Assembly: GCA_029582155.1 (NCBI GenBank)
Contig: CM055906.1
Location: 11,217,101 to 11,281,100, forward strand
DNA: 64,000 nucleotides
Source of the DNA: Panopea generosa
Lineage: Eukaryota; Mollusca; Bivalvia; Adapedonta; Hiatellidae
Reading direction: 5' to 3'
In this document: positions 9,314 to 63,778 of the stretch, piece after piece
How the letters are laid out: each line of letters begins with the position of its first letter
How positions within the stretch are numbered: the stretch's first letter is position 1
Notes under the pieces: generated by a model
The model's input: only the letters and a program-made list of their open reading frames with translations
What the model was told of the DNA's origin: nothing
Databases searched by the model: none
Made by a program: the position numbers and the translations under genes

Positions 9314-9360
9314 ACAAGAGCACCACGTGCTGGTGCAGATGCTCACCTGTTACTGCAAGT
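9314..9360 (+). mobile_element. 5' end of a terminal-hairpin element (GCACCA stem)
   Basis: ACAAGA is followed by a perfect 6-bp stem, GCACCA/TGGTGC (9320-9325 with 9331-9336, loop CGTGC), then ATGCTCACCTG. The layout is that of the elements at 34571, 38385, 41464, 44571 and 62275. No matching 3' end is evident nearby. Confidence 0.55.
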
Positions 9361-31800: not shown

Positions 31801-34800
31801 TAGATTACTGTTTGTCAACATATTTACCTTCGCTAGGGCCTAGTTGTTCAAAACTTGGTTAGCTGAACTCTGAATTAGGTAAAATTTTAAATCACGATAT
31901 TTTGAGATTAACAGCATTTTAGGTTAATTTTTTTTTGAAAATAAGAAAATATGCCATTTTGTTTCTTAAAATGCATTTAAACTGCCATAAAGTCATTAAG
32001 TATAGAAAATACTAAGGTTACAAAAATTCACTTAACCGTGGTTAAGTTGACAGAGCTTTGAACAACTGGGAAACATTCAGTAACATAAACATTTTTATGT
32101 AATGGCTAACAAATGACAACACAAAAGAAATTTGTTTGCATTACAAATGTCTACTAATATTATTCACAATCTAAGTTTCATGTTCAAATGTTTGATGAAT
32201 TTTAGCCTGCATGACACAGACAGGCAACCGTACGACAGATTTACCGTCTTCACTAAGCGTCTGCTTCGATCCACAATCAGATATGAGTGGAACGGATTTG
32301 ATACACCATGAATGTGAAATCCTTTTCCCTGTTAAGCGATTATCACATTCCAAGCAGCAGGAGAGAGAAATATTAATCACACAGTAGAAAAAAGTTCAAG
32401 TAAGCAAACAAATGATACTAAACAGTTTTATAATGTCCAATAAATGTATTCATTAGATGTATTTTGTATGTTCAATTTAAAGATCAGCTAAAAATTACAG
32501 GAGAAGGAATCATGTTACTTTTACAGATGTGCAAACTCCAGCAAACTGCTTTAATATGGTTAAAAATGTCATATCATTATTCAATGGCCAAAATATACAG
32601 AATTTGAAATGTACTGAATGAGGAAAACTGCACTGAATCAGAAAATATTGATATTATCAACTCTGTGAGCAGTTAATAAAATTAATTTCAAAATGAGTTG
32701 TAGTTGTATGGTGTTTAGCAGTGGTTCTAGCATTTTTCAGTCATGTCACAGCATTGTCTACTTGAGACAGAATTCTGAGTGCTGCCTCATTGGAGTATCA
32801 TGCCGCAGACACAGTCTACTGACACCGGGCCACCAGACCTAGAACTTACTATTATCTTAATGCTGAGCGCCAATCAAGGAAGCTTCTAGTACCAATTTTT
32901 AAAAGATAATCTCACAAAACATGCATAAAGGTTAAATATGAAAACATAACATAAATCCATTATACTAGAAACTTTATTAACATTTAAAATACAAAATTAT
33001 ACAGTAAACCAGTCCAGATTTTGTAACTTGATAATTAATCAAAATTCTTTCACTTTTGTCAGGATTTCAAACAATTTCATGCTGGCAGATACAAGCCTTT
33101 TTTTTTTTAACAAATTTGGTTTCAAATTCATGGTTATGGTAGTCACCTATTCAGTACATTTTCCTCAATTTACAGATTTAAATTTGGAGATAAAAGAAAA
33201 ATTGATAAAGAAAGATGTTATTGGGATGTGCACACTCATTGATAATGGTCACATGACTCCTGTCCTGGAATTAAGAACCAAACCACATGATATTTATTAC
33301 ATTAGACTTCTGTTTCGCCAACATTTTCTTCAATACTTAAAGAACTTTAATAAAAGGGTTATATTGGCAATCTACATATTCAAGTTGCAAATGGATACTT
33401 TCTCTATATATTATGCACATAAAATAGTGTGTGTGTACCGATTCAATGTCACCTAAAAGTATTGTCACTATTTACATCTATGTCTGTGAACATTCTGAAC
33501 ATAGCTTCGTATTTCCAAAAAAATCTGTGCATGCACCTGATCAGTAATAAACTATGCATTTGTACACAGTTATTTACACCGTCGCAGTGTGCAATGGTTG
33601 ATCGGAATACCAAAGGCAGTCTGTTCAAAATGGAAAGCTAAACACATCAAATGATTTTATGCATCTGAAAGACAATGCATACTAAAGCGATAATATATAA
33701 TTACATACCTTGCATTCATAAATATGTAAGTTTTATGTATATTTTTTTATTTGTAATTTTTTCATGATACCATGTTGAGAGTTAAATGCCAATATACTCT
33801 GATTATCTCAATTTTGACTGGTATCTTTAAAATTCTTTAATAAATGTCAGTGAAACCAAATGCAGTTTTTCTAGAGTCAGTCTAAAATCATGATGCTTTT
33901 CTTTCATTTAAGTTTTTAAGCATTGAGTATATATTTAAATATGTTGGTGAAACAAAGATCAGAAAAACTGTACTATCCATGCACACAAGATCATTGGCTT
34001 TATGTAGTTAGCAATTCATAAGAATAAGAATGCAATAAGTACCTCAACATGGCTGCCACTCTAAATTGTTCATAATTTGTTTCTGTTTTTTCTTCCCACT
34101 TTTTGTTTGTTTATCATAAATTATTCAATTTATCCCCGATTTTGTTTTCCATCATTACCTTGTCATATCTATTTTCTTGTTTTATCAAATATACCTGTCT
34201 TTCCCCACTTTTGTTATTTTTCCAAAAAAAATTCTCAAGGAACCTTTTTTTCAAAGCTCAACATTTCTTTCTGTTTATTTCATATTAAAACACAAAATTC
34301 CTCAACTCCTCCTATGTTGAGCCTGACAACCTTATGTTGAGTGTTGAGCCTGGCAACCATGTGTTTTGCCTGGCAACCAGGTGATGAGCCTAACAATCAT
34401 GTCTTTAGCCTGGCAACCATGTCCTTGACGGCACATTTCTAAGACATAACTAACTGTAATTACCGGCTCCGCGAGGTAAGGACATCCATCCTGAGGTAAG
34501 TATTCATTCACACATTTAATTTATATCAACTTAAAATAAAAATTTTGGGGAATTAAATGTGTAGCAAATAAAAAAAGAGTTGTCAGAAGACAATAAAGCT
34601 CACCAATGGGATACAACTCACCACCCATGTAAAGATTGAGATTGGAGGCAAACACCAAAACTTAAACGCAACTAAACGCAAAAGTTTAATCTGGGTGTCT
34701 ACAGACGAAAAATTAAGTCCAAAAGGGCCATAACTCTGCCATAATGCAACCATGAGTTATGGTTCTTGTCTGTGTGTGTTCCATTGATGATGGTGAACAC

Positions 34801-37800: not shown

Positions 37801-40800
37801 CAAAAAATGTTTTCTTTCTTTTTTACAAAATGAATTTTAATTTACTTTTTTTTTAAAAAAAAAATTCACAAAAAAAACAGAGATGAAACTAAATGTCAAT
37901 TTAAGGTGCAATTAATGGCACAGATACGGTACGAAACATAAAATATGATAAACAATGGATAAAACAATAAATACAATTAGCGTATATATTTGTGTTAAGT
38001 AAGCAGATACAAATGAAGCTTAAGCTATAGAACACAGTAAAAGCAATAAAATAAAATAGGACTTAAGGCTATAATAAATTAATTGCTAGATTATCATCCC
38101 CACCCACCCCCTAATTTTCATGTATCCCTGACCCTTATGAGTTTCATAAAAAAAATAATAATAAAATCCTCCCCACATCTCCCCCTTTTTAAATCAAAAT
38201 TGAATGATAATCTGGCAATTGAATTATAATGGCCTAAAGTTAGTATATGAGAAAAAAACGCTATAAATGTCTTAAAATAATAATAAAATAATAATTCAAA
38301 TGGATAAAAAGCATCTCACTTTCATTAATAAATAAAAGCCAAATGGTTTACATGTAAACCTGTATAACAAATCAAACTGAAATAACAAGAGTTGTCAGAA
38401 GACAACAAAGCTCGCCTATGGGATAAAATTCACCCCCCATGCAAAGATTGAGATTGGTGGTAAACACCAAAACTTAAATGCAACTAAACGCAAAAGTTTA
38501 TCTGGGTGTCTACAGACGACGCGGGAGTCATGGCAATAGCTCTCATTGACATTCATCCCCATGAGCTAAAAATGAAATCATGTGACTCATTTAATACATC
38601 ACAAAATATGTTGCAATTTAAGCGGAAAATCTAGTTTAGTTTAATCTAGGTGTGAAGTCCAAGTTAGGAAATTCCTTTTTAATATATTTCTTTTGCACAT
38701 TTAAATAGATATTCTTTAAGCAATAATGGGGTCAGTGATATATTGGGAAAAAATTTTTTTTTTTTAGCCATTTCTAAAATTTGAAAAACCCCTGGTATAT
38801 TCCGTTTAATACTGACATTTCAGCCATTGTTTAATTTCTCTGTATTAGTGAACAATTTATCAAATACGTAAAAATCTCTTGAAATGAAGTGATTTCTTTT
38901 GGCATATTTCATAATATTTACTTAAAATTTAGGAGATTTCGGAAGGACAGTATTTTCCACAATTTGAAAATCTGACATAAAGAAGTTAACCGCCAATACA
39001 TGCATGTAGTTTACCAGATATCAAGGCTGTATATAGAACCGGTAACAGCAATTACAATTGCTGCCTAGTTTGAATCACATTGTACCAGCACCACCATGCT
39101 TCAACCACACTTACTACAACTAATCGTTATATATGGCAGTACCTACAACTAGCTCTGACTTTCATGCAAGTAATCTACTGATACCATTATACAAGTGTTT
39201 GGTAAGACTTGGTTAGTCTTTGGTAAGATTTGGGTAGTTTTTGATAAGACTTGGTTAGTCTTTGGTAAGTGGTAAGACTTGGTTAGTCTTTGGTAAGTGG
39301 TAGGACTTGGTTAGTCTTTGATAAGACTTGGTTAATCTTTGATAAGTGGTAAGACTTTAGGGGTAGTCTTTAGTAAGACTTTAGTAAGACTTGGTTATTT
39401 TTTTTGTAAGTGGTAATGTTTGGTTAATCTTTGGTAAGACTTGGTTAGTCTTTGGTAAGACTTGGTTAGTCTTTGATAAGTGGTAAGACTTGGGTAGTCT
39501 TTAGTAAGACTTGGTTATTTTTTTTGTAAGTGGTAATATTTGGTTAATCTTTGGTAAGACTTGGTTACTCTTGGTAAGTGGTAAGACTTGGTTAGTCTTT
39601 GGTAAGTGGTAGGACTTGGTTAGTCTTTGATAAGTGGTAAGACTTGGTTAGTCTTTGGTAAGACTTGGTAAGTCTTTGATAAGTGGTAAGACTTGGTAGT
39701 CTTTAGTAAGACTTGGTTATTTTTTTTGTAAGTGGTAATATTTGGTTAATCTTTGGTAAGACTTGGTTACTCTTGGTAAGTGGTAAGACTTGGTTAGTCT
39801 TTGGTAAGTGGTAGGACTTGGTTAGTCTTTGGTAAGACTTGGTTAGTCTTTGATAAGTGGTAAGACTTGGGTAGTCTTTGGTAAGACTTGGTAAGTCTTT
39901 GATAAGTGGTAAGACTTGGGTAGTCTTTAGTAAGACTTGGTTATTTTTTTTGTAAGTGGTAATATTTGGTTAATCTTTGGTAAGACTTGGTTACTCTTGG
40001 TAAGTGGTAAGACTTGGTAAGTCTTTGGTAAGTGGTAAGACTTGGTTACTCTTGGTAAGTGGTAAGACTTGGTTAGTCTTTGATAAGTGGTAAGACTTGG
40101 GTAGTCTTTGGTAACACTTGGTAAGTCTTTGATAAGTGGTAAGACTTGGGTAGTCTTTAGTAAGACTTGGTTAGTTTTTTGTAAGTGGTAATATTTGGTT
40201 AATCTTTGGTAAGACTTGGTTACTCTTTGGTAAGTGGTAAGAACTTGGCCATTATTTGATAAGTGGTAAGACTTGGTTAGTCTTTGGTAAGTGGTAAGAC
40301 TTGGTAAATCTTTGGAAAGTGAAGTGGTAAGACTAGGTTAGTCTTTGGTAAGTGGTAAGACTTTGTTAGTCTTTGGTAAGACTTGGTTAGTCTTTGGTAA
40401 GAAATCAAATCATATTTCAATTATTGATTCATTGAACTATATTTTCTTTGTCATCTAATTCTATAGTATAAATTTATTATAAGCATGAACTGAGAATGAG
40501 TTTAGTGAGAATGGATTTCAATCTTCCACACATGGAGGACTGAATATGGGGCTAATAAATGAGATGATGATGATATCTAGATATTAATTCATGGACTGAC
40601 ATATACAAACTGAAGTGTCATATTTAAAAACAATCACAGTCTACAATTGTTTACTTAGCTTAACCCATTACTCCATATGCATTTTCTTGGATTCTTCAAA
40701 ATTGAATGCATTATTTCACCACTTATCAGCAATGATGTTGTTGTATGGTGTTTAAGCGTCACTTTCAAAAATTGTTCAGTCATATCGCGACGGTGTCTAC

Positions 40801-43800
40801 TTGAGACAGTATTCTAAGCGCTGTCACACTGGAGTATCATGCCGCAGACACATGGTATGATACCCACTCAGTCACATTATACTGACACCGGGCCGACCAG
40901 ACCTAGAACTCTCCTCTAAATGCTGAGCGTCAAGCGAGGAAGCTTCTAGTACCATTTTTAAAGTCTTTGGTATGACCCGGCCGGTATCAGCAATGAGTGA
41001 ATTATGTTTATATTTACTGACAGAGTGGAAAACAGTGCAGGAAGTGCATTGTTTTCGCGCAATCTGAGCTCTTCCTGCACTGTTTTCAAAGGCTTTCTGT
41101 AATTGGTGTGGGAAAATGTGTATCTATGGGGTAAAGGGTTAAAGCTGTAGTAACTCCAGCAAAAGTTATCTGATTTGGCCATTTTACAAACTTATCCCGA
41201 GATTTTTTGGTTATATGTGTTAACTTGTGACGATCCAATGATCCACTACAGAGTGCACTCATGAGGCCAACTAATGCAAATTAGTTCAAGAACTTGTCCA
41301 AAATATTATCATTATGCAACTGCAGTGTTAGTGCAGGGAAGATCCATTAAAACTGCTGGGACTATCAGGTATAAATTATTAAGTTAACAGACGGATGGCT
41401 AATGGGCATAGAGTGATCAGAAAAGCTCACCTTGAGCTAAAAAGATTGCAAAACTACACAAAAACAAGAGGCCCAAGAGGGCCTGAGGACGCTCTACTGA
41501 CTCATAGTGGCCATAGCACTTTTTGAAATTCTACTATGGAATAGAAACATCGGCCATCTTGAATTTTAGATAGACAAAAATAAATCTTTTGTATAGTCTC
41601 CTATGCAATAGAAACATCCATGTGAAGTTTAATTGGCATAGTGGTTTCAAAATAAATTTAAAAAAAAAGAGAATTTTCTGTTTTCCCACAGTATCCCTAT
41701 GTAAAATTCTAAGTCCCCTTACAGGGCCCCTTTAAATTTTACCCCTTAAATTCTTATCTGCAATCAAACCCCTACACATAGGGATAATTTATGCAAAATA
41801 TGAACAAATTTGACATACCGGTTCTTAAGAAAACAAATTTAGTAATTCCCAATTTGTATCCTTTTGGGGCCCCTCCTGACCCCTTAAGACAGTGGAACCC
41901 AGTCATTTTTACAAATCTGAACCTCCTTCACCAAACAATGCTTCTGTGAAGATATAGGCAAAATCATTTCCATTTTAAAAAAAAATATATAAAAAATTTT
42001 TATAATGACATGTGTCCCCTAATTGAACCCTTCGGGGCGGGGTCATATTTAACCCTAGGGACACCATTTGAACAAATCTAACAAAACTATAGCTGGTCAT
42101 CATTATTTCATAAACATTTTGAAAATCTGTTGGGCCGTTATGAGAAGAAGATTTTTTAAGTTTTGGACTATTTTTAGTAATGGCGACCATCTTGAATTTC
42201 AGAGCGAAAAAAAACATCTTTGGTAAATTCTCCTTTGCAATAGAAACACCCATGTGAAGTTTCAGTTTAATTGGTCTAGTGGCTTCAGAGAAAGTGCTGC
42301 TAACAGAGGACAGACGACAGACAACGCGCCATCGCATAAGCACTTCTGGCCTTTGACCAGTAGAGCTAACAATATATGGGACTAGTTAGCAAATTAATTC
42401 ATTACAAAAGCCATACTCCAAAAAACAGTATAAATATTGCCACACATTCCAGAAAATATGCGTTCAGGCAGATACAGAGTTGTACCAAAATTGTCCCATA
42501 TCTGAAGTTGACTTTTTGCCACAAAAAAAACTTCAAATCCCAATTTGAAGTAAACTTCCACTTGTAATTTCAAGTTAACAATTGTTTCCAATATGTGATA
42601 TTCATTAATTCCGACATATATTTTGTTAATTATTAAGAGTAAAATCAAAATTAACCCTCCTCCCAATCTTCAAGTTAACCCTCCTCCCAGTCTTCAAGTT
42701 AACCCTCCTCCCAATCTTCAAGTTAACCCTCCTCCCAATCTTTAAGTTATTTCTCCTCCCAATCTTTAAGTTAACCCTCCTCCCAATCTTCAAGTTAACC
42801 CTCCTCCCGATCTTTAAGTTAACCCTCCTCCCGATCTTCAAGTTAACCCTCCTCCCAATCTTCAAGTTAACCCTCCTCCCAATCTTTAAGTTATTTCTCC
42901 TCCCAATCTTTAAGTTAACCCTCCTCCCAATCTTCAAGTTAACCCTCCTCCCGATCTTTAAGTTAACCCTCCTCCCAATCTTCAAGTTAACCCTCCTCCG
43001 GATCTTTAAGTTAACCCTTCTCCCGATCTTCAAGTTAACCCTCCTCCCAGTCTTCAAGTTAATCCTCCTCCCAATCTTCAAGTTAACCCTCCTCCCAATC
43101 TTTAAGTTATTTCTCCTCCCAATCTTTAAGTTAACCCTCCTCTCAATCTTCAAGTTAACCCTCCTCCCGATCTTTAAGTTAACCCTCCTCCCGATCTTCA
43201 AGTTAACCCTCCTCCCGATCTTCAAGTTAACCCTCCTCCCAATCTTTAAGTTATTTCTCCTCCCAATCTTTAAGTTAACCCTCCTCCCAATATTCAAGTT
43301 AACCCTCCTCCCGATCTTTAAGTTAACCCTCCTCCCAATCTTCAAGTTAACCCTCCTCCCGATCTTCAAGTTAACCCTCCTCCCGATCTTTAAGTTAACC
43401 CTCCTCCCAATCTTCAAGTTAACCCTCCTCCCAATCTTCAAGTTAACCCTCCTCCCAATCTTCAAGTTAACCCTCCTCCCGATCTTTAAGTTAACCCTCC
43501 TCCCAATCTTCAAGTTAACTCTTCTCCCAATCTTTAAGTTAACCCTCCTCCCAATCTTCAAGTTAACCCTCCTCCCAATCTTCAAGTTAACCCTCCTCCC
43601 GATCTTTAAGTTAACTCTTCTCCCAATCTTCAAATTTAAAAATTTGACCCCCACCTCCTAATAAGATAAGAATAATGGCATTTTTTATATACTAAGTTTT
43701 CAGTCGTGTTTTCTCCCCACATACATGAACACACATTTTCATACTATACAGGCATATTGGTTAATGTCTTTAAATACAAAAAACTCACCTCATTAAAAAC

Positions 43801-52800: not shown

Positions 52801-55800
52801 TATATATATATTTACCGCTATGATACAGTATAACTGAATGTTAATATTAAATCAATAAATAATAATCCTGAGACTAACCATCTTTAAAACAAGCAATACT
52901 GATATTCATGAAACAACAAAGTGTTCATTTGTGAAAGTCCACAAGTCCTAATTAGACAATATTATTATTTATTTTAAACTTCACATACATTTTTAGCTGA
53001 GCTCTATGCCGAAGGCAGAGCCCACTTACATGTATGTTGTGGTGATGCAGCTCTGCAGTGTTAATCACCACCAAAATGATCATATGCGACAAGTATTACT
53101 TTTTATTCCTCAAATTTATTTTTATTTTTAAAATACACTCGGGTCCCGTTATAACGAGGTCTGATATAACACGAAACTTGTTATAATGGGTTTTTTCTAT
53201 GGCTCCCAAATTTAAAATTTATATTTTCAATCAGATTTATAAAAAAACCCACAGTATAATGATTGATGAATTGATTGAAAACCTCAACTAAATCTCTAAC
53301 CGTTCGCTAACTCTTTATGTTTTTTCAAATTGTGACGATGTATTTGTGCATCAATTACACCTTGATAATTTAGATTGACATCAAAACAACTTCTTATTGT
53401 TATAAACAACATCGCTTTTAATTGATTTATGCTGACAAACAATGGTCAGTCAAATTTATCACACATTGTCTTGTGTTTGTTTACAATACTTTGACCGAAA
53501 CTATTATTACCAAATAGTGTAGCACAGTGCACCTTGGGATATTTATAACGCGGTTCCACATGTATTGCATTTCATTCCATGGATCCCAGCAATAGCTTTA
53601 TAATGGGACCCGAGTGTATTTCATATAAGCAAGCAGAAACAAATCACATGCAGAAGATAAGATAATATCTTCAAAAATATTGCATAAAAGAAACCAAATG
53701 CTACAATAATGTCTATCAAATCAGGGAGGCATGTGGATATTTATTAAATATTTGCTATCAAAACTTTGAAGTACTTTGATATATACTGATATTTCAATAC
53801 CAAAACTAATTTTAAATGTACAACAGTTTAAAATACGTTATACTGGACCAGTGTCAACAGTACTGTGACGCAATTTTATAAAGATGTAATACATCTCAAT
53901 GGTGAATTTGTATTTACACAACGACAATAAAAAAATATCTAAATAAATAAACAATATGGCATGTGTGCAAATTTGACAATATTTACATGAAGGGACTGTT
54001 GCTTTTATCCATCAGTGCCTTATACTTGGTGCTCGGCATGCCTGGTACAACCTGAAACTCAAGCCCTGGTATGAAGTTATCCGGGGGTGCGGCAAACAGT
54101 TCCAATTTACCCAGAAGTACTTCCTCCCACTGTTCTATGATGCGTAACACCGCGTGGAGGAGTGGTGAACACACAGGTAATTCTGCAACAAAACAAATGG
54201 TAGTTATTTAACTTTTGAGTAAAAAGTAAAAAGAATGAATGAAATTTATAAGAAAAAGTCACAACTTGGAATATAAACTAACCAGGCATAAGATTTAGTC
54301 GGTGAACTTTGAAGCTGTAATAAATGAATTGGTGTGTGAGGACAAAAAATAACATAAATTTACATATATTAAAGAATTATCCACAAAATTACTTTTCAAT
54401 TATATTACAGGAAACCAAACTGAAATATTTAAACTTATTTGTTGTACATCAATTGTTCAAAAGTTCTAACAACTTAGACAAAACACGCTCAAAGTCTTCA
54501 TGGGTAGAACTAATGATTAATGATATGTGGATAAAGTGTCTTGCTCAAGGACACTACACATAGCCACGACAGAGGATCAACTGAATGTGTAAATGACAAC
54601 ATCAACATCTGAAAATGGATTAAGTAATCACTATGTGTCAGACAAGCATGCAGGGGCATCATTCATGGATGAAATAGTTTGCATATATTTCAAGGATTGA
54701 AGTCATTCTGCTTTATATACAGTAACCTTAAATATGTATTTAAAAATGCCAACACTACTAAAGTGAAAGAACATGAAGCAGAAATCAGACTACTTACACA
54801 TTGTCCCCCATTTCACTTCAACACGCCGCTCAATAGCCCATGATAGAACATACGCTTATACATGAAATATATGACATTACTAAATGTAGCAATATTGAGT
54901 AAGTAGGTAGGAACACAAAAAACAATATATTTTTTAATGGTGGCCTCAGATGTAAATGTTCACCTATCACGTCAATTCACACTCACCCTGTACTTCACGT
55001 CAACTCGCATTCTCCCTGTATTATATTCATGTCAACTTGTACTCTCCCTGTATTATATTCATGTCAACTTGCACTCTCCCTGTATTATATTCATGTCAAC
55101 TTGCACTCTCCCTGTATTATATTCATGTCAACTTGCACTCTCCCTGTATTGTATTCATGTCAACTTGTACTCTCCCTGTATTATATTCATGTCAACTTGC
55201 ACTCTCCCTGTATTATACTCATGTCAACTTGTACTCTCCCTGTATTATATTCATGTCAACTTGTACTCTCCCTGTATTATATTCATGTCAACTTGCACTC
55301 TCCCTGTATTATACTCATGTCAACTTGTACTCTCCCTGTATTATACTCATGTCAACTTGTACTGTCAACTTGCACTCTCCCTGTATTATATTCATGTCAA
55401 CTTGCACTCTCCCTGTATTATATTCATGTCAACTTGTACTCTCCCTATATTATATTCATGTCAACTTGCACTCTCCCTGTATTATATTCATGTCAACGTG
55501 TACTCTCCCTGTATTATATTCATGTCAACTTGTACTCTCCCTGTATTATACTCATGTCAACTTGTACTCTCCCTGTATTATACTCATGTCAACTTGTACT
55601 GTCAACTTCCACTCTCCCTGTATTATATTCATGTCAACTTGCACTCTCCCTGTATTATATTCATGTCAACTTGTACTCTCCCTGTATTATATTCATGTCA
55701 TTGTACTCTCCCTGTATTATATTCATGTCAACTTGCACTCTCCCTGTATTATATTCATGTCAACGTGTACTCTCCCTGTATTATATTCATGTCAACTTGT

Positions 55801-58800
55801 ACTCTCCCTGTATTATATTCATGTCAACTTGCACTCTCCCTGTATTATACTCATGTCAACTTGTACTGTCAACTTGTACTCTCCCTGTATTATACTCATG
55901 TCAACTTGTACTGTCAACTTGCACTCTCCCTGTATTATATTCATGTCAACTTGCACTCTCCCTGTATTATATTCATGTCAACTTGTACTCTCCCTGTATT
56001 ATATTCATGTCAACTTGCACTCTCCCTGTATTATATTCATGTCAACGTGTACTCTCCCTGTATTATATTCATGTCAACTTGTACTCTCCCTGTATTATAC
56101 TCATGTCAACTTGTACTCTCCCTGTATTATACTCATGTCAACTTGTACTGTCAACTTGCACTCTCCCTGTATTATATTCATGTCAACTTGCACTCTCCCT
56201 GTATTATATTTATGTCAACTTGTACTCTCCCTGTATTATATTCATGTCAACTTGCACTCTCCCTGTATTATATTCATGTCAACGTGTACTCTCCCTGTAT
56301 TATACTCATGTCAACTTGTACTCTCCCTGTATTATATTCATGTCAACTTGTACTCTCCCTGTATTATATTCATGTCAACTTGTACTCTCCCTGTATTATA
56401 TTCATGTCAACTTGTACTCTCCCTGTATTATACTCATGTCAACTTGTACTCTCCCTGTATTATATTCATGTCAACTTGCACTCTCCCTGTATTATATTCA
56501 TGTCAACTTGTACTCTCTCTGTATTATACTCATGTCAACTTGTACTCTCCCTGTATTATACTCATGTCAACTTGTACTGTCAACTTGCACTCTCCCTGTA
56601 TTATATTCATGTCAACTTGCACTCTCCCTGTATTATATTCATGTCAACTTGTACTCTCCCTGTATTATATTCATGTCAACTTGCACTCTCCCTGTATTAT
56701 ATTCATGTCAACTTGTACTCTCCCTGTATTATATTCATGTCAACTTGCACTCTCCCTGTATTATATTCATGTCAACGTGTACTCTCCCTGTATTATATTC
56801 ATGTCAACTTGTACTTTCCCTGTTTTATACTCATGTCAACTTGTACTGTCAACTTGCACTCTCCCTGTATTATATTCATGTCAACTTGCACTCTCCCTGT
56901 ATTATATTCATGTCAACTTGTACTCTCCCTGTATTATATTCATGTCAACTTGTACTCTCCCTGTATTATATTTATGTCAACTTGTACTGTCAACTTGTAC
57001 TCTCCCTGTATTATATTCATGTCAACTTGCACTCTCCCTGTATTATATTCATGTCAACTTGTACTCTCCCTGTATTATATTCATGTCAACTTGCACTCTC
57101 CCTGTATTATATTCATGTCAACTTGTACTGTCAACTTGCACTCTCCCTGTATTATATTCATGTCAACTTGTTCTCTCCCTGTATTGTATTCATGTCAACT
57201 TGCACTCTCCCTGTATTATATACATGTCAACTTGCACTCTCCCTGTATTATATTCATGTCAACTTGTACTCTCCCTGTATTATATTCATGGCAACTTGCA
57301 CTCTCCCTGTATTATATTCATGTCAACTTGCACTCTCCCTGTATTACATTCATATCAACTTTGCACTCACCTTGTAATTCTATGCCAATATGTGGTAAGA
57401 ATGTGGATAGATTATGCAACACCAGTTTGACAATCGCGTACCGTAGCAGACACCAGGCATAAGAGTTGGGATCCGTATGTTGGTGAACATTTGCTAGAGA
57501 TCTACAATACACAGAACAAATGAATATCTTCCAATAGACTTACATTTACTCCAGAATTGGAGTCAAATATATACAAACAATTTTAACTGTTTTAATTTTG
57601 ACACATTTAGACCTGACAAAATCATATTTTCTGCACGAGTAATCTTCAATATTAAGCTATGTCACCTTTCCTGTTTGTATTGAAATATCTGGACAGACAA
57701 GCTCTTGATATCATCTATTTCAATGTATAAAGAGAAGCTGTAACCGCATTAACTCAAAATATTTAAATTGAAAATGCAGACTGATCCAAACAAATCTCTT
57801 GGAAAAAAAACCAAATACGATTATATTGTATTTAATTTTGGAATAAAGGGATGGAGTCGAGTTGAACACATTACAGGTTCTATATGGCATCCAGTTTTAT
57901 TGGTGGTGGTATAATTTAAAATCAGTCTGAGTAGAACCATTGTCTTCTGCAAGTTACTGGTAAACTTACTCAAATAAAGTAAGCTGAGTGAGCTGGACAG
58001 GACTATAAACCTAGCGGTAAAAGGTAAGCGACCTTGAGAGGGCACCTTAAATAGTGAAGTCACAGAGGACATTAATAAACGATGGGTGATGCATCATTCA
58101 AGTTATAAACTGATGCACTATTAAATAAAAAATTGACAGAATATTTATATGAATGACATTGTCAGATTTTCTCTTTTTATGTCAACTTGTTTTTTATCTT
58201 GCTCATAATGCTATGAAATGTTCATTTTTTTTATATTGGGGTACTCCTTGGCTCAGATATGGCCAAGAAAAAGGACGTACACTTGGGTTGCATTATAATG
58301 CAATGCTGGGATACACAGAATAAAACCATGTCATACACGGTATCACGTTATAAATATCCCAAGGTGCACTGCGTTGCACTATTTGGCAATACTTTATCCA
58401 GTCAAAGTACTGTAAACAAACACATGAAATGTGTGATAAATATCACAGACCAGTTTGTCAGCGTAAATCAATTAAAAGCAATGTTGTTTATAACAATAAC
58501 AAGTTGTTATAATGTCAGTCTGAATTATCAAGGTGTAATTTATGCAAAAATACATGGTTACAGTTTTGAAAAACAACACAAGCTCGTAAACACTTAGCCA
58601 CTTAGTGGAGATTTTCAATCAAATCATCAATCATTATATGGTGAGTTATAAATTTGATTGAAAATATAAATTTTAAATTTGGGACCCACTGAAAAATAGC
58701 GTTATAACGAGTTTCATGTTAAATGGACCCGAGTGTAAATGTAGTACAGAGCAGTTCAACATTAATATCAACTTTAAAAAAATAGAATCTTAGAAACAAC

Positions 58801-61800: not shown

Positions 61801-63778
61801 ACAGAGGCTATACCTCCCCCTCCTGCCCCCTGTAACACACAATACGCTATCAATGTCCGCAACAACTGCTGGTTCTGCCTCAGCCACTGCTTTCTGTGAC
61901 CCATTCTCTCCATTTTCGCATCCAAATCCATTTTCTCAGCCAGGATGGTCTCGTGAAGTGTTGGTTTGCTAGCGTCTGATCGTGAGAAGCCCCTATGCTG
62001 AAGTGTTAACGGAGAGTCTGCTCGTACCTCATCATCATCAAACGGTCCTGGAAGTAAAAAGATTTATTTATTATAATAAGGTGTAACGTCCAATGTCTTA
62101 ACCGTTCATGTTATCTTGACAGCCAGACCTCAAGAGTTCAACAAAAAGCAGCTAATGGAAGCCTGGCTTTGTAAAAGAACTCTGGATTGGTTATGTGTGA
62201 ACATCTTTGCTATAAGCTGAGAATCAGTATTTTTGGTAATCAGAGAAAGACATCAGACACATGTGTATGCACAAACAAGAGGGCCAAGATGGCCCTATAT
62301 CGCTCACCTAAGTGACCTTGAGTCACCCAACTTAAGTAGATTATATAATACATGTACACTCAAAATTCAAGAAAAAACGAGATGGGCGAGTAGTTAGAAT
62401 TTTGAATTGTTTTGAAGATGTAACAGATGCGCAGAAGAGTTGTGTGATAACAATAGTATCCTTGTGCAGATATCTGGATATCAGATATTGAAAAAAAGTT
62501 TTCACTATATATCCATATAAAGAAAACCAGCCTCCCCTCCTGGCGACTATGTTTTTCGACGAATCACAATGGCTTGAACAAACTTGGTAGAGGTTCACCC
62601 AAGGTAAATGTCAGTGAAATTACATCGAAATCAGGTCAGTAGATTCTGACAAGAAGGCTTTTAAAATTTTTACTATAGCTGCCTATACAGTAAAATAGCA
62701 CCTCACTGTTCACAACGGCTTGAACAAACTTGGTAAAGGGTCACCTAAGGAACATTTCTGCAAAATTGTTTTAAAATTGATTTGGTGGTTTGTGACAAGA
62801 AGATTTTTTTACTATAGCTTATATAGTAAACTAACCCCAACCCCTGGCTGCCATGTTTTTTGACGAATCACTACGTTTTGAACAAACTTGGTAAAAGGGC
62901 CACTAAGAAAAATTTCTGTGAAATTATTTTAAAATCGAGCCAGTAGTTTCTGACAAGAAGATTATTTAAGTTTTTACTAATTAAACTTGCCCAGCCCCCT
63001 GGCGGCCATGTTTTTAAACCAATCAAGATGGCTTGAAAAAACTTGGTAGAGAGTCACCCAAGGATCATTTCCTTTAAGTTATATCGAAATTGGCCCAGTT
63101 GTTTCTGACAAGAAGATTTTTTAAGTTTTTACTATAGCTTATATAATAAACAAACCCCACCCCCTAGCCGCCATGTTTTTTGACGAATCACTACGGTTTG
63201 AACAAACTTGGTGAAAGGTCCTCCAAGGAACATTTCAGTGAAATTATTTTAAAATCGAGCCAGTAGTTTCTGACAAGAAGATTTTTAAAGTTTTTACTTA
63301 TTAAACTTGCCCCACCCCCTGGCGGCCATATTTTTTGACGAATCAAGATAGCTTGAACAAACTTGGTAGAGGGTCACCCAAGGATATTTCTGTAAAGTTA
63401 TATCAAAATTGGCCCAGTGGTTTCAGAGGAGAAGTCGTTGGAAGCTTAAAGTTAACGACGAACGACAGAGCTGACGACGGAAAAACGGACGACAGACAAC
63501 GGACACCAGGCGATCACAAAAGCTCACCTGTGGCTCAGGGAGCTAACAAGTAAAACATGACCACCATCTACCTTAAACCCAACGACCAGGGAATGCATTT
63601 CCCTATCTTCACTTTAAGATAAGCAATATACTTGTTATATATGATTACTAATCTATTCTAAATAAAAAATTTTAAACAATACATAAGCAGAGTTGAAATT
63701 TAAATTCAATACCTGATAACGGAGGTGATATTGAGACAGTGGTTTGCGCCACATGGTCATGAAGCCACTTAGCATAGT
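16678..63778 (-). CDS. DMXL: Rabconnectin-3alpha (DMXL1/2 family), C-terminal third, 19 exons
   Basis: Gene overview; exons are listed singly. DMXL proteins are very large WD40 scaffolds of about 3000 residues. With the WDR7 partner they promote assembly of the V1 and V0 parts of the vacuolar ATPase, like yeast Rav1, and act on endosomes and synaptic vesicles. The 19 exons here encode about 1030 residues. In order they give: a basic helical segment with WLRQNQQLLRTL; a leucine-rich MELLLLLQELQQE region; conserved EKFVPPE, FMTKPFVENSD and YDSDDS segments with an acidic tail; the KRLWFHLIKQDKLRD and EPFKIIHKEQDIITAFAIN blocks; and a C-terminal WD40 propeller of about six repeats ending LFSCGVDGSMK-like. 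Phases agree at all 18 junctions. The 5' two thirds lie beyond the right edge. Exon 17 carries a one-base insertion. I cannot tell DMXL1 from DMXL2; invertebrates usually have one gene. Confidence 0.93.
17531..17658 (-). CDS. DMXL: DMXL exon 18: WD40 repeat
   Basis: Starts with two bases completing a codon, then IFDIRQRQMRHTFQAHESL, IRCLAIDPEEEYFVTGSADG and DVK; donor GTAAGG, ending phase 0. IFDIRQRQ...FQAH is a hallmark of the family. Confidence 0.95.
17758..17910. repeat. SINE-like dispersed repeat, family D
   Basis: GGGTTATGAGTTCAAGCTC (B-box-like), then CTTCCTCCACCAATAAAACT. Shared segments occur at 21467-21625, 44330-44420, 51690-51800 and 57880-57990. Confidence 0.5.
18313..18440. repeat. 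Dispersed repeat, second copy
   Basis: Matches 8935-9105 in GGGTTTACGACATACTAACA, then ACAGGAAGATTCCAGGCTCA. It lies in the intron between exons 17 and 18. Confidence 0.6.
18527..18617 (-). CDS. DMXL: DMXL exon 17: WD40 repeat with a +1 frameshift
   Basis: Acceptor ATTACATTGCAG; the first frame reads (A)FTCHEHGSPALV. One extra T then breaks the frame, and YAPHHQLLISGGRKGEI resumes in the next one, ending at a T|GTATCC donor that joins exon 18 as ...GEICIFDIRQRQ. The family reads FTCH-x-HG...YAP-x-QQLLISGGRKG without interruption. Without the extra base the exon would be 90 nt and every phase would fit; with it, the reading hits TGA a few codons into exon 18. Probably an assembly or read error, but a real null allele is possible. 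Confidence 0.88.
18640..19532. repeat. 22-bp minisatellite, left block
   Basis: About 40 copies of ACATACTAGACAATTATATGTC with shorter and TCGC/ATATC variants. It fills most of the intron upstream of exon 17 and begins about 25 bases from that exon's acceptor. Remnants continue after the inserted element, around 20405-20455. Confidence 0.95.
19533..20404. mobile_element. pogo/Tigger-type element, 872 bp, inside the satellite
   Basis: Ends CACTGCGGTCCCGTTATAAC and, in reverse complement, CACTCGGGTCCCGTTATAAC, flanked by TA (19531-19532, 20405-20406). Further TATAACGCG subterminal repeats occur at both ends. No transposase frame is intact. Relatives are at 53136-53616 and 58280-58735. Removing it restores a satellite unit (ACAAT-TA-TATG). 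Confidence 0.9.
20579..20723 (-). CDS. DMXL: DMXL exon 16: WD40 repeat
   Basis: Acceptor CCATTTCAG, phase 0 start. It reads SLSCHNKTTSDFVFVGSSS, then LIATAGHSSESRNVCLWDTL and CVH; the last base G joins exon 17 to make Ala. CHNKT...SSSLIAT-x-G...RNVCLWDTL is near-invariant in DMXL proteins. Confidence 0.96.
20878..21446. mobile_element. Small element with TTAACGCCCCC-type ends
   Basis: TAATTAACGCCCCCCGGGGC near the left and GGTGGGGGCGTTTATTAAAG near the right are inverted versions of one sequence, with ACCGTATATTCCC outside the left copy. The boundaries are approximate. No coding capacity. Confidence 0.6.
21447..21466. repeat. Short TTAGGG-like tract
   Basis: GGGTTAGGGTTAGG, about two and a half copies of the metazoan telomere unit, directly after the element above. 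Too short to mean much alone. Confidence 0.6.
21467..21625 (+). repeat. SINE-like repeat, family D
   Basis: GAGGTTGCAGGTTCGAGTCCC is a good tRNA B-box sequence; the body has GTTACCAGTTTCTTGC and the end AGGTTTTCCTCCACC, then ATATCTGGATAAACC. The A-box end is missing or diverged. Confidence 0.6.
22266..22343 (-). CDS. DMXL: DMXL exon 15: WD40 repeat end
   Basis: Acceptor TCTATTACAG, 26 codons, phase 0 both ends: CCVSDTEGQICLWQVGHGSN, then FNKPIM; donor GTGAGT. D-x-EG-x-x-x-LWQV is the strand-d tryptophan motif of a WD blade. Confidence 0.94.
22850..23511. mobile_element. 662-bp TTAA-flanked MITE carrying a tandem repeat
   Basis: The left end AGGGACACACAGCAATG and the reverse complement of the right end (AGGGACAAACACAGCAATA) match apart from a small gap. 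Both are flanked by TTAA (22846-22849, 23512-23515), the target site of piggyBac- and Kolobok-type elements. It contains the 50-bp array 23020-23430. Confidence 0.82.
23020..23430. repeat. 50-bp tandem repeat, 8 copies
   Basis: TATGCCCCTTTC recurs exactly every 50 bases from about 23031 to 23381, with GAGTGAGGGTCTATAT and CATTATGGTGTATC in each unit. It is internal to the TTAA element. Confidence 0.95.
23613..23655. repeat. (GACC)n microsatellite
   Basis: About ten GACC units with one CAAC variant. Confidence 0.92.
23771..23901 (-). CDS. DMXL: DMXL exon 14: WD40 repeat
   Basis: Acceptor GATTTCTAG; two bases complete Tyr with exon 13. It then reads LTGNTDGSVRLWEWGHSQPL, AMLRAPGTFPKVTKV and LFNSHGNK; donor GTAAGT, phase 0. 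YLTG-x-x-DGSVR-x-x-EW and FNS-x-GNK are conserved in the family. Confidence 0.96.
24127..26320. repeat. 42-bp minisatellite, about 52 copies
   Basis: Unit core GATGCTAAATGATTAAAGCA, then GCTAACCATATCTCTGTCTACT. Because 42 is a multiple of three, the minus strand stays open for 446 codons as a 14-residue repeat (MVSCFNHLASVDRD). It sits within the intron between DMXL exons 13 and 14. A partial unit duplication lies near 25750. Not taken as protein-coding. Confidence 0.96.
26563..26623 (-). CDS. DMXL: DMXL exon 13: entry to the WD40 propeller
   Basis: Acceptor CTGTTGCAG, 61 nt: VSRRPMAGVRRISSHPMLPH, then one base T; donor GTGAGT. RR-x-x-SHP-x-x-PHYLTG across the junction with exon 14 matches the family. 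Confidence 0.95.
27531..27833 (+). CDS. P2X7 intracellular (ballast) domain-like ORF, N-terminal part
   Basis: A 100-residue ORF. The acidic N-terminus (SEAELNELENERNSE) precedes a cysteine cluster FCSCKNCVRM...NTCCRCNDH (C45, C47, C50, C61, C62, C64), then LEDLECITEIIQ. The order CxC-x2-C, CC and CIT is that of the zinc-binding cytoplasmic domain of P2X7 receptors, which in molluscs and cnidarians also occurs in many orphan or transposon-linked proteins. The later conserved part is absent or decayed; only a YRHIA stretch at 28443-28457 recalls it. It lies on the strand opposite to rabconnectin, inside its intron and inside a TTAA-flanked element, so it is probably element cargo. Zinc binding is inferred from cysteine spacing only. 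Confidence 0.6.
   Translation: MDFSNGEVLVAYNFEPEFSEAELNELENERNSETAQLFTYVKDFCSCKNCVRMLSSDENTCCRCNDHTNGNLEDLECITEIIQRNTEMSYEYFTQKDDNC
28985..29275 (-). repeat. tRNA-derived SINE, family A, copy 3
   Basis: Best-preserved copy. On the minus strand the head reads GCCCGATTAGCTCAGTCAG, then TTAAGTGTCTAACAATC and a B-box GAGTTTGAATCCCC, followed by ACCCGGCAACAGTCTC. The far end reads CCCTCGATGGCAAAAAATGA. Confidence 0.85.
30926..31435. repeat. About 153-bp tandem units with GGGCCATAACTCATTGA
   Basis: Three units, each opening AAAGGGCCATAACTCATTGA and containing AATTCCAGCCAATGGTTGCT. GACCGACGGACGGAT follows, then TATCTGGGGGTATAA. This is the body of a non-autonomous dispersed element; the same GGGCCATAACTC phrase occurs in 34571-35108. 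Confidence 0.75.
31839..32069. mobile_element. 231-bp MITE-like element, CCTAGTTGTTCAAA ends
   Basis: CCTAGTTGTTCAAAACTTGG at the left matches the reverse complement of the right end (CCCAGTTGTTCAAAGCTCTG). Non-coding. It ends about 175 bases from DMXL exon 12. Confidence 0.78.
32245..32328 (-). CDS. DMXL: DMXL exon 12 (short exon)
   Basis: Too short to stand out as an open frame. Acceptor TCGCTTAACAG and donor ACG|GTAAAT bound 84 nt with phase 0 at both ends. Translation GKGFHIHGVSNPFHSYLIVD, then RSRRLVKT. This puts a basic segment directly before VSRRPMAGVRR in exon 13. The stretch is richer in G+C than its surroundings and shows protein character. I cannot align it residue by residue from memory, so it is less certain than its neighbours. 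Confidence 0.75.
32700..32905 (-). repeat. SINE, family C
   Basis: Shares TACTTGAGACAG, ATCATGCCGCAGACAC, CTGACACCGGGCC, CCAGACCTAGAACT and GAAGCTTCTAGTACCA with the bounded copy at 40736-40984. Confidence 0.75.
33835..33960. repeat. Dispersed repeat shared with 60236-60340
   Basis: Both copies contain TTTAATAAATGTCAG, then CATGAT and GCATGC/TGATGC with CTTTTCTT. The flanks carry TTCTGTTTCACCAA or its complement. Probably a degraded small element. Confidence 0.5.
34571..35108 (+). mobile_element. Terminal-hairpin element (GTTGTC stem), copy 1
   Basis: 5' end AAAAGAG with stem GTTGTC/GACAAT (34579-34594, loop AGAA), then AAGCTCACC. The 3' end is GCGAGCTAATA (GAGCTAA at 35102-35108). Inside are two units with GGGCCATAACTCTGCC and GAGTTATGGTTCTTGTC. 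A shorter relative is at 38385-38569. Confidence 0.75.
35562..35754 (-). CDS. DMXL: DMXL exon 11: linker before the WD40 propeller
   Basis: Acceptor TTCAATTTAG; one base completes Asn with exon 10. It reads PGPGNPAENVDFLVVQTPSD, then a Ser/Thr/Gly/Asn-rich low-complexity stretch and LAPGQQALAQTGRGTNV. The donor is chosen as GTG|GTGGGT because only this keeps phase 0 into exon 12. A second candidate four bases away (G|GTAGAA) would break the phase. Probably a disordered linker. Confidence 0.85.
36536..36660 (-). repeat. tRNA-like repeat head
   Basis: On the minus strand GGGGGCAGTAGCGTGGTGGA, later GGTTGTAGGTTAGACCCC, gives A/B-box-like sequences. It is likely a SINE fragment, not a tRNA gene: the arms do not pair well. 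Confidence 0.45.
36793..36917 (-). CDS. DMXL: DMXL exon 10
   Basis: Acceptor GTTTTACAG, 125 nt: ANASCLTLATQKELIELDIH, then HLLNPPVWLDDENEMDIESF; donor GTAATT after two bases. A-N-x-x-C-x-x-LA-x-x-x-E-x-x-ELD continues the AFAIN motif of exon 9 as in vertebrate DMXL. Confidence 0.92.
38385..38569 (+). mobile_element. Terminal-hairpin element (GTTGTC stem), 185 bp
   Basis: ACAAGA, then perfect stem GTTGTC/GACAAC (38391-38406, loop AGAA), then AAGCTCGCC; ends ATGAGCTAAAAA (GAGCTAA at 38563-38569). The shortest complete-looking member, apparently an internally deleted form of 34571-35108. Confidence 0.78.
39195..40400. repeat. Irregular GGTAAGACTTGGTTAGTCTTT array
   Basis: Many 20-30-bp units of TGGTAAGACTTGGTTAGTCT with GTGGTAAG inserts. 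A longer unit with GTTATTTTTTTTGTAAGTGG recurs near 39396, 39515, 39715 and 39941, showing higher-order duplication. Confidence 0.92.
40736..40984 (-). repeat. SINE, family C, with 12-bp target duplication
   Basis: TATCAGCAATGA occurs directly on both sides (40724-40735 and 40985-40996). Minus-strand head CCGGCCGGGTCATACC, then AAAGACTTTAAAAATGGTA; the tail runs out in ACAACAACA. Relatives at 32700-32905, 60970-61255 and 63836-63900. Confidence 0.88.
41028..41087. repeat. 17-bp perfect inverted repeat
   Basis: GAAAACAGTGCAGGAAG at 41028-41044 pairs with 41071-41087 around a 26-base loop. It lies inside the TTAA MITE. Confidence 0.9.
41340..41440 (+). mobile_element. 3' fragment of a terminal-hairpin element
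   Basis: ATCAGAAAAGCTCACCTTGA, ending in GAGCTAA (41434-41440), has AGCTCA/TGAGCT pairing. It lies 23 bases before the 5' end of the next element of the same class. Its own 5' end is not identified. Confidence 0.55.
41464..42369 (+). mobile_element. Terminal-hairpin element (AGGCCC stem)
   Basis: ACAAG, then stem AGGCCC/GGGCCT with loop AAGA (41469-41484), then GACGCTCTAC. Ends CAGTAGAGCTAAC (GAGCTAA at 42363-42369) after GGCCTTTGACCAG. The interior repeats CCATGTGAAGTTT and GGCGACCATCTTGAATTT phrases. No coding. Confidence 0.75.
42655..43635. repeat. 24-bp minisatellite, about 41 copies
   Basis: Unit TCAAGTTAACCCTCCTCCCA plus ATCT. The period is a multiple of three, so the minus strand is open for 342 codons as NLKIGRRV repeats. 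Some units read TTATTTCTCC instead of TTAACCCTCC. It is in a DMXL intron and not taken as coding. Confidence 0.96.
44330..44420 (-). repeat. SINE-like repeat, family D fragment
   Basis: GGCTATATATGGCATCCACTT, later GCAGAACCACCACTGTCCTT, matches 57880-57990. Confidence 0.45.
44571..46184 (+). mobile_element. Terminal-hairpin element (AGGGCCA stem), copy 1
   Basis: ACAAG, then 7-bp stem AGGGCCA/TGGCCCT with a 3-base loop (44576-44592), then ATATCGCTCACCT. The body is about seven diverged units of roughly 155 bp with GGCGGCCATGTTTTTTGACG, AACAAACTTGGTAGAGGGTC and CAGTAGTTTCTGACAAGAAG. The 3' end is a strong hairpin: 46150-46165 pairs with 46169-46182 across TTT, followed by AA so that it closes in GAGCTAA. 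A second copy is at 62275-63546. Confidence 0.85.
47450..48370. repeat. About 37-bp tandem repeat, about 25 copies
   Basis: GACATCATTGCAAGACCTGAC, then ATCAAACAGATGAGA, with single-base length changes between units. Confidence 0.93.
49085..49275 (-). repeat. SINE family A fragment
   Basis: Body of the family (GGTTAACCTGCACAACC, AGTAAGTAACTGATAACTTT, GTAGACGAATGACAAT) without the tRNA-like head. Confidence 0.65.
49420..49434. repeat. Poly-C tract
   Basis: An uninterrupted C run of at least 14 bases. Confidence 0.9.
50215..50670. repeat. About 30-bp tandem repeat
   Basis: GAGTATATACACATGCATTA, then GAACAGGCCCC, alternating with longer units that add ATCTCTACAT. Confidence 0.93.
51544..51642 (-). 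CDS. DMXL: DMXL exon 9
   Basis: Acceptor ATATTTGCAG, 33 codons, phase 0 both ends: DSSLDGVESPKVPEPFK, then IIHKEQDIITAFAINQ; donor GTGAGC. PEPFKIIHKE-x-DIITAFAIN is among the most conserved DMXL segments. Confidence 0.97.
51690..51800. repeat. SINE-like repeat, family D fragment
   Basis: TTCATTCCGAGGTTTTTCTCC, then CAAACAAAACTGGATGTGCC and ATATATAACC. Confidence 0.45.
52030..52168. repeat. About 25-bp tandem repeat
   Basis: About five units of ACATATAATATATGTCTAAT with TGGTTT and TAGTTT variants. Confidence 0.85.
52505..52628 (-). CDS. DMXL: DMXL exon 8
   Basis: Acceptor ATATATTTCAG; one base joins exon 7. It reads ESHATLPIKRLWFHLIKQ, then DKLRDVFVRYVFRKQK and IDPLDRE; donor GTACAG, phase 0. 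KRLW-x-x-LI/VK/RQ...F-x-RY-x-F is the family pattern. Confidence 0.94.
52993..53025 (-). mobile_element. 3' end hairpin fragment of a terminal-hairpin element
   Basis: On the minus strand GGGCTCTGCC pairs with GGCATAGAGCTC across TTC, followed by AGCTAAAAAT, as in the 3' ends at 41434 and 46178. No 5' end found. Confidence 0.5.
53136..53616. mobile_element. pogo/Tigger-type MITE, 481 bp
   Basis: CACTCGGGTCCCGTTATAAC at the left and its inverted form at the right (TTATAATGGGACCCGAGTG), flanked by TA (53134-53135, 53617-53618). The interior is the inverse of 58280-58735 (e.g. GTGCACCTTGGGATATTTAT). Confidence 0.92.
53987..54182 (-). CDS. DMXL: DMXL exon 7
   Basis: Acceptor TTTTGTTGCAG; two bases complete Glu with exon 6. 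It reads LPVCSPLLHAVLRIIEQWEE, VLLGKLELFAAPPDNFIPGL and KYKALMDKSNSPF. The donor AT|GTAAAT is chosen because it keeps the phase into exon 8 and the family's conserved KY-x-ALL...PF end. An earlier AA|GTATAAG donor also keeps phase but would delete that end. Confidence 0.9.
54963..57370. repeat. 32-bp minisatellite, about 75 copies
   Basis: Unit ATGTCAACTTGCACTCTCCC, then TGTATTATATTC, with occasional short units that repeat only GTCAACTTGTACT. The period is not a multiple of three and lacks stops, so all three plus frames stay open for 782-841 codons and read the same peptide cycle. It fills the DMXL intron up to the exon 6 donor at 57370. Not taken as coding. Confidence 0.97.
57371..57501 (-). 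CDS. DMXL: DMXL exon 6
   Basis: Acceptor TGTATTGTAG, one base completing Leu with exon 5. It reads SLANVHQHTDPNSYAWCLLR, YAIVKLVLHNLSTFL and PHIGIELQ; donor GTGAGT after one base. FLP-x-IGIE-x-x-ELPV...SPL across the junction with exon 7 matches DMXL proteins. Confidence 0.95.
57880..57990 (-). repeat. SINE-like repeat, family D fragment
   Basis: TTCTATATGGCATCCAGTTT, then TATTGGTGGTGG and AGTAGAACCATTGTCTTC. Confidence 0.45.
58280..58735. mobile_element. pogo/Tigger-type MITE, 456 bp, inverted relative to 53136-53616
   Basis: Left end CACTTGGGTTGCATTATAAT, right end GGACCCGAGTG, TA flanks at 58278-58279 and 58736-58737. The 112-codon plus-strand frame over it is not a gene. Confidence 0.88.
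58908..58934. repeat. Poly-C then (CA)n
   Basis: C run followed by about seven CA units. Confidence 0.9.
59019..59271 (-). CDS. DMXL: DMXL exon 5
   Basis: Acceptor TATGACACAG, 253 nt: KDDMYNKRVRLNMKIMGQ, TYKEKFVPPELSMITYFMTK, PFVENSDTVFSYDSDDSMSS, then an acidic E/D tract and LRPKLL; donor GTGAGT after two bases. KEKFVPPE-x-SMI-x-x-FMTKPF and the following SYDSD plus acidic tail are diagnostic of rabconnectin-3alpha. The acidic tail is shorter than the vertebrate one. Confidence 0.97.
59875..60123 (-). CDS. DMXL: DMXL exon 4
   Basis: Acceptor TTACTTTCAG; two bases complete Gly with exon 3. It reads VTSLRVLLAREKDEDSPK, LNILLTESLVAVYVSLLINS, LATFDCFMLYRLTAHKFDQ and LWSSLFGGGVKSIV; donor GTAAGT after one base. 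Helical, hydrophobic segments; LW-x-x-LFGGG is conserved in DMXL. Confidence 0.95.
60236..60340. repeat. Dispersed repeat shared with 33835-33960
   Basis: TTTTTTAATAAATGTCAGGG, later AAAGTCATGATCAAATGC. TTCTGTTTCACCAATATTTT just upstream (60177) may belong to it. Confidence 0.5.
60789..60907 (-). CDS. DMXL: DMXL exon 3
   Basis: Acceptor TTTTTTTTTTAG; one base completes Ser with exon 2. It reads NNFFRDASHLMAGVRKTR, TRSGNSATSDDIINTPP and GKWP; donor GTCAGT after one base. The basic stretch, then TPP-x-KWPG, introduces the helical exon 4 as in other DMXL proteins. Confidence 0.93.
60970..61255 (+). repeat. SINE, family C, with tRNA-like head
   Basis: Head TCTATTGGTAGAGCTTTTGC, then GCATTCGATCCCC (A- and B-box-like). 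The body AGTTCTAGAAATGGTTGGCC, then CAGCATGACATTCC and CTCAAGTAGACACC, matches 40736-40984 in the opposite orientation. Confidence 0.75.
61285..61345 (-). repeat. tRNA-like fragment
   Basis: Minus strand CTGGGTAGTCTCGTGATTC, later ATGGGTTTGAGCCCCGC (B-box-like). Probably a SINE head remnant. Confidence 0.4.
61438..62047 (-). CDS. DMXL: DMXL exon 2 (largest in window)
   Basis: Acceptor TTTTACTTCCAG, 610 nt. It reads PFDDDEVRADSPLTLQ, ETILAEKMDLDAKMERMGHR, KQWLRQNQQLLRTLIAYCVL, QGAGGGGIASVQMELLLLLQ and ELQQEKPQQQLLSPLPFPTT. LPLLSASIASSKTV, a helical DPIQHIQCLCQDLLHSVIEF, and VGFEGFYN follow; donor GTAGGT after two bases. QWL-x-x-NQ-x-LLRTL, G-x-GGG-ASV-x-MELLLLL and LLSPLPFPTTLPLLSA are near-invariant in DMXL. 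Some overlapping frames on both strands look open but lack this conservation. Confidence 0.97.
62275..63546 (+). mobile_element. Terminal-hairpin element (AGGGCCA stem), copy 2
   Basis: Same 5' end as 44571 (stem AGGGCCA/TGGCCCT, then ATATCGCTCACCT), same roughly 155-bp internal units, and a 3' end AGCTCACCTGTGGCTCAGGG ending GAGCTAA at 63540-63546. The 3' hairpin has lost part of its stem compared with copy 1. It sits in the intron between DMXL exons 1 and 2. Confidence 0.85.
63713..63778 (-). CDS. DMXL: DMXL exon 1 of those in the window
   Basis: 66 nt: two bases, then YAKWLHDHVAQTTVSISPPL and S; donor GTATTG after one base, joining exon 2 as SGPFDDD. The acceptor is ATAGTAAG; the earlier AAATAG would bring an in-frame TAA. 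The pyrimidine tract is weak. KWL-x-x-H is found before the SDPFD-type segment in the family. Upstream exons are outside the window. Confidence 0.82.

Follow-up and report, generated by a model that had tools for sequence, protein, structure and literature searches.

Hairpin-ended repeats in the genome of Panopea generosa are most likely non-autonomous Helentrons with a 3' terminator palindrome

The window analysed in this study, a 64-kb stretch of the 1.47-Gb assembly of Panopea generosa, carries on its minus strand six elements that can, with little doubt, be classed as non-autonomous Helentrons (HINEs; Helitron2-type, DINE-1-like), with a hairpin as their 3' terminator. The hairpins most likely represent the 3' terminator palindromes, i.e. 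the stop signals, of rolling-circle transposons. The preliminary description of this DNA had taken them for transposon ends, which the Helentron-type anatomy of the minus strand bears out. Their placement at the 5' terminus was not upheld: a minus-strand end had been viewed from the plus strand, so the orientation was reversed, and it is the 3' end that bears the hairpin. Thousands of repeats in this genome can be assigned to a known mechanism with their orientation corrected; the finding itself alters no general view.

All six hairpin stems, reported to follow similar starting sequences, were found in the window at the expected positions. A strict scan (CAAGA, an exact stem of at least 5 pairs, a loop of 3–8 and GCTC close behind) gave five matches, far above the number produced by chance in 100 dinucleotide shuffles (mean 0.06, maximum 1). 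In the sixth hairpin (34579–34594), the flank has decayed to AAAAGAG and one pair is G.T. A palindrome stands behind the 3' subTIR in 6/6 elements. When the six 3' ends were folded as single-stranded DNA, the z-scores ranged from −1.2 (element F, which folds only weakly above its shuffles) to −3.8 (element E). The loops, read on the minus strand, are composed solely of T and C in three of the four stem types of the window (TCT, TCTT and TTCT), and that of F is GCACG. Since the D-type loop varies genome-wide, any loop rule is only a guess.

The order of features on the minus strand is a T-run, the 5' subTIR, a matching 3' subTIR, the hairpin and CTCTTGT within T-rich DNA. Elements A–E open with AGCTC after the T-run, and in C, D and E a complementary arm (IR) comes next, together with a GTC-rich stretch that was recognised by reading as a microsatellite. 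In A–E a second copy of the start motif, inverted or eroded, is present and is followed by the hairpin, beyond which lie CTCTTGT and further T residues, with the decayed element A as the exception. At least two T residues adjoin the 5' ends in 6/6 cases (A–E and a lone 5' end) and the 3' ends in 6/6 cases (A–F).

Both ends are present in element D (44571–46182, minus strand; 5' end at 46182, 3' end at 44571), which contains (i) a 5' subTIR with its complementary IR, forming a 5' hairpin (46150–46182; fold z −5.1), (ii) central tandem repeats with a period of 155 bp (44854–46059), (iii) the 3' subTIR CAGGTGAGC (44598–44606) and (iv) the terminator palindrome AGGGCCA-TCT-TGGCCCT (44576–44592). 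Element E (62275–63544, minus strand) belongs to the same family (the last 60 bp are 95% identical) and has an identical palindrome (62280–62296), a mutated 5' subTIR with an IR hairpin (63521–63544; z −3.5) and central repeats of the same 155-bp period (62715–63424); a tandem core of approximately this length (~155 bp) is confined to D and E. Element C (41464–42367, minus strand), also with both ends, carries the palindrome AGGCCC-TCTT-GGGCCT (41469–41484), the 3' subTIR CAGTAGAGC (41491–41499) and a 5' subTIR with an imperfect IR (42339–42367; z −2.3). It is adjoined by the lone 5' end (41424–41438, minus strand), whose hairpin is AGCTCA-AGG-TGAGCT (z −2.2). The remaining minus-strand elements are the short HINE B (38385–38567; palindrome GTTGTC-TTCT-GACAAC at 38391–38406), element A of the same group (34576–35106), with a decayed 3' tip and one G.T pair in its palindrome (34579–34594), and F, represented by its 3' end only (9314–9349; palindrome 9320–9336, subTIR 9341–9349), for which a 5' partner may possibly lie near position 9673. 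A 5' hairpin fold was not detected in A (z −0.1) or B (z 0.3).

The motif previously noted a few bases from the stem (GCTC-R-CC or GCTCTAC) proved to be the 3' subTIR, which agrees with the opposite end of its element; it occurs in two forms because each matches the other end of the element that carries it. Thus, GCTCTACTG is present at both ends of C, and GCTCACCTG at both ends of D. The subTIRs are exact over 9–10 bp in C and D, gapped or eroded in A and B, and mutated in the 5' copy of E. Nine exact bases were reached by random pieces of the window in 0.2% of 20,000 draws. The lengths in C and D fall below the 11 bp by which Thomas et al. define one family.

Collecting the genomic copies, as the preliminary description had advised, revealed 9,064 matches (4523+4541) to the 3'-end pattern ACAAGA-N21-GCTCNNCT, compared with 46 (27+19) for a reversed-pattern control; for the 5'-end pattern there were 7,786 matches genome-wide and 11 in controls. 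Among the first 100 3'-end matches listed, the endings were TACT (49), ACCT (37), GTCT (9) and others (5). Scans of IMG/VR with the end pattern gave 8 matches, which are attributed to chance, as none carries the stem when inspected by eye; the palindrome pattern of the 5' end had no matches in IMG/VR, and scans of GTDB gave none either.

The agreement between the two ends was then analysed in C1:0-28.8 Mb by linking 3' and 5' ends within 4 kb. The input comprised 100 listed 3' ends, a list that stops at 28.814 Mb, and the first 82 of 100 listed 5' ends, the 18 lying beyond 28.815 Mb being left out. Among these listed matches, 35 raw rows had the right orientation (2 of them crossed), 4 the wrong direction and none the wrong strand, and only 35/100 3' ends had a 5' partner within 4 kb. 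When each listed 5' end was assigned to its nearest 3' end, 31 pairs were obtained in this region, none of them crossed: TACT with TA (23), TACT with TT (1) and ACCT with GT (7). The ends agree across the 30 pairs that fall into the TACT–TA or the ACCT–GT type (Fisher p = 5e-7), and the TACT–TT pair, with a one-base difference between its ends, is the sole such case among the 31. Each of the crossed rows (C1:24880069 and C1:26039804) represents a C element within a D-like element, and the two places are near-identical; this nesting led us to reject a chimera formed by terminator read-through. The ten listed 3' ends with GTCT or CTCT had no 5' partner among the matches listed, and the AC form that would match them was absent from the 100 listed 5' ends.

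These data leave some room for the idea, which we consider rather unlikely, that several Helentron end-codes, linked to separate 3' stems, coexist (GCTCACCTG, GCTCTACTG, ATGCGGATG and perhaps GCTCGTCT) and are kept separate by an obligatory pairing of the 5' and 3' subTIRs within an element, which would set the end point; the GCTCGTCT group is represented by its 3' side only. If true, this would turn the pairing of the two subTIRs, as proposed in the consulted text of Bao and Jurka (PMC3627910), into a testable rule of orthogonal codes. Families with different, internally agreeing ends provide good material for testing whether pairing between the 5' and 3' subTIRs determines where Helentron transposition ends.

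The stems had been described as unrelated between families and as covarying, and each of these statements holds in part. In the window, the outer six positions of the two arms are paired at 6/6 within an element (5/6 for A), compared with 24/72 when arms are combined across families. However, the stems of D/E and C agree in 5/6 outer arm bases, so these two are not unrelated. The stems of D and E are identical, and the difference between those of A and B is uncompensated. Wholesale replacement of the stem between families, instead of pairwise change, may have taken place. When the 100 listed 3' ends were grouped by subTIR (a typing that put one F-type row in the D group), standard pairs occupied 271/294 cells in the C type, 255/287 in the D type and 46/50 in the F type, whereas the slid controls reached at most 182, 147 and 28, respectively. 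The stem was fully paired in 33/49 C-type, 22/41 D-type and 6/10 F-type copies of this list.

Compensation within the D family was counted genome-wide for pairs 10-18 and 9-19, using a strict pattern with the remainder of the end unchanged. Pair 10-18 is C-G in 1207 copies; the right base alone was changed in 71 (C.A in 58 of them) and the left base in 124. Among the 100 of these 124 that were listed, we found T.G (56), T-A (20), A.G (17) and G.G (4), as well as single cases of A-T, T.T and A.A. Under independence, T-A would be expected in about 3.5 of the 77 listed rows with T. However, the 20 T-A rows fall in 7 places, five of which are groups with a spacing of 0.93–0.97 kb, and since they lie mostly in such satellite-like groups they are not independent events. 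At pair 9-19 the left base was changed in 58 copies, only 2 of which were compensated. Compensation within the D family was thus not established at these two pairs, and the mostly uncompensated, one-sided changes are as expected of dead copies. Covariation therefore applies between families, as the pairing of each arm with its own partner indicates, and was not established among copies of the D family. Source lineages thus share a kept fold whose sequence is not fixed.

Genes of the type needed for rolling-circle transposition are present in the same genome: Pfam Helitron_like_N gave 81 matches, compared with none in 14 control genomes. A young Helentron of 19.4 kb (C1:23303666-23323116) has copies on C2, C5 and C9, with 99.8% identity among three places and 97–99% for the C2 copies. 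Its 2,097-aa frame combines a herpes-tegument-like deubiquitinase domain with Helitron_like_N, PIF1 and, at the C-terminus, an endonuclease (Exo_endo_phos), a set reported as the Helentron combination in the consulted text of PMC9741609. At its 5' end there is a hairpin behind a T-run, and at its 3' end the subTIR CATCCGCAT, which matches ATGCGGATG at the 5' end, is followed by the palindrome AGTACT-GTT-AGTACT and TTGATT. The empty site GCAGTTTTTCTTC, revealed by a nested insertion, is a T-run without duplication beyond T and was seen just for this Helentron, whose subTIR family is other than those of the window. The 19.4-kb Helentron and the window elements share a common end plan. The preliminary description had called for an autonomous Rep/helicase partner; Helentron genes were indeed found, but the ends of the one family that were read differ from those of the window. 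The 19.4-kb element was therefore rejected as the partner of the window families and, because its subTIR (ATGCGGATG) is unlike theirs, it shows the class of mechanism rather than a demonstrated partner. An autonomous element with the ends of the window families was not found where ends were read, i.e. in one Helentron family; most of the other Helitron_like_N loci were examined over ~3.5 kb, which is too short for ends to show. A degenerate HINE 3' end (CTCTTGT) lies inside the 19.4-kb Helentron, in each of the four copies for which this part was read; this internal end is a passenger copy.

Among the mechanisms suggested earlier for the folded strand, rolling-circle transposition is best supported, given the Helentron anatomy and the Helentron genes of this genome, a Helentron of which would presumably have moved the window families. 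In such a model, a Rep/helicase encoded elsewhere in the genome would nick the 5' end within the T-run, one strand would be unwound up to a pause at the 3' palindrome, and the CTCTTGT tip would be cut. The freed single strand could then enter another T-run, directly or as a circle, with no target-site duplication beyond T. The helicase would be stopped by a paired fold with a loop, which would leave the letters of the stem free to change, and the required match between the 5' and 3' subTIRs would make both ends of a family change together. In Helraiser, according to the consulted text of PMC4778049, transposition is terminated by the 3' hairpin: exchange of the stem alone retained ~90% of activity, and ~35% of colonies remained when the hairpin was deleted. 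Altering the loop, or using an entirely foreign hairpin, did as much harm as deletion. The tolerated exchange would account for stems that change freely while pairing persists, and the effects of loop change and foreign hairpins indicate that in Helraiser the fold alone is insufficient.

Non-coding repeats that are short and carry an inverted repeat at either end might also be MITE-like cut-and-paste elements, mobilised by a DDE transposase acting via terminal inverted repeats. The T residues on both flanks would, taken by themselves, be compatible with a TT duplication, and DINE-1 was once filed as a MITE, as stated in the consulted text of PMC2374699. Against this very improbable origin, the repeat sits at the tip of the element on one side but well inside it on the other, where the hairpin lies outside the repeat, so that the symmetric terminal inverted repeats of a MITE are not what is observed; moreover, the Helentron genes of the genome are associated with a matching end plan. 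A canonical Helitron (Helitron1; 5' TC, 3' CTRR, A–T insertion) was likewise rejected, as AGCTC and CTCTTGT, set in T-runs, form the ends here.

A fold that is conserved while its sequence changes would also suit a structured RNA or a SINE-like retroelement with a 5' hairpin recognised as RNA, one of the readings offered at the outset. Nothing pointed to RNA, however: no Rfam match was present in the window, and inverted repeats that agree at both ends, with a hairpin at the 3' tip, form a Helentron-like layout, which makes this interpretation scarcely credible. We assign a similarly negligible probability to IS200/IS605-like peel-and-paste elements. Their subterminal hairpins at both ends and their single-strand logic resemble the situation described here, but agreeing subTIRs, a GTC-rich microsatellite and flanking T-runs are in keeping with Helentrons, a judgement that rests on fit.

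Several known systems are similar to the non-autonomous Helentrons proposed here. Cg_HINE of the Pacific oyster (Vojvoda Zeljko 2020, PMC7492417), likened by its description in the consulted text, has a 5' subTIR, a complementary IR, a GTCY-type microsatellite, central satellite-like tandem repeats and a 3' subTIR followed by a palindrome, and its elements differ among themselves in subTIR, stem and loop. The layout of DINE-1 of Drosophila, as given in the consulted text of Yang and Barbash (2008, PMC2374699), is also shared, with a reported preference for TT insertion; its stem varies in sequence between species with the structure kept, a terminator role was proposed for it, and the subTIR of DINE-1, at 13 bp, has a sequence unlike those of the window elements. 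Helitron2 (Bao and Jurka 2013, PMC3627910; consulted text) has asymmetric terminal inverted repeats of 8–15 bp, hairpins at both ends and T-run insertion, and compensatory base mutations were noted at its ends; in contrast, window-type ends were seen here on no coding copy. Helraiser, a Helitron1 (Grabundzija 2016, PMC4778049), shares the 3' hairpin, the stem of which is exchangeable when the loop is kept, but is presented in the consulted text with TC/CTAG ends and AT insertion, and without a subTIR or 5' hairpin. Changing stems with kept pairing have thus already been reported, for DINE-1 in 2008 (PMC2374699) and Helitron2 in 2013 (PMC3627910). Literature text searches for four end motifs returned no paper on repeats, judged by title, and in no paper did helitron, HLE2, stem-loop and terminal inverted occur all together.

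A satellite-like array was observed at C10:3312900-3320900, composed of 940–973-bp units, each of which contains flanking DNA and a HINE 3' end whose stem has the compensated T-A pair; groups with a similar spacing are present on C6, C12, C13 and C17. Within the window, another HINE family is perhaps represented at positions 30979–31430 by a tandem repeat of 149 bp, behind which come a GACGGACGG stretch and an inverted repeat (CCCC/GGGG) noted by eye. Long minisatellites were found at positions 24134–26321 (42-bp unit), 42651–43633 (24-bp unit) and 54994–57376 (32-bp unit). A 342-residue stop-to-stop frame on the minus strand (5651–6679) resembles a Tc1/mariner transposase, with several HTH Pfam matches and HTH_Tnp_Tc3_2 below the cut-off, and a frame at 27483–27833 weakly matches the intracellular domain of the P2X7 receptor (E 3e-4, below the cut-off).
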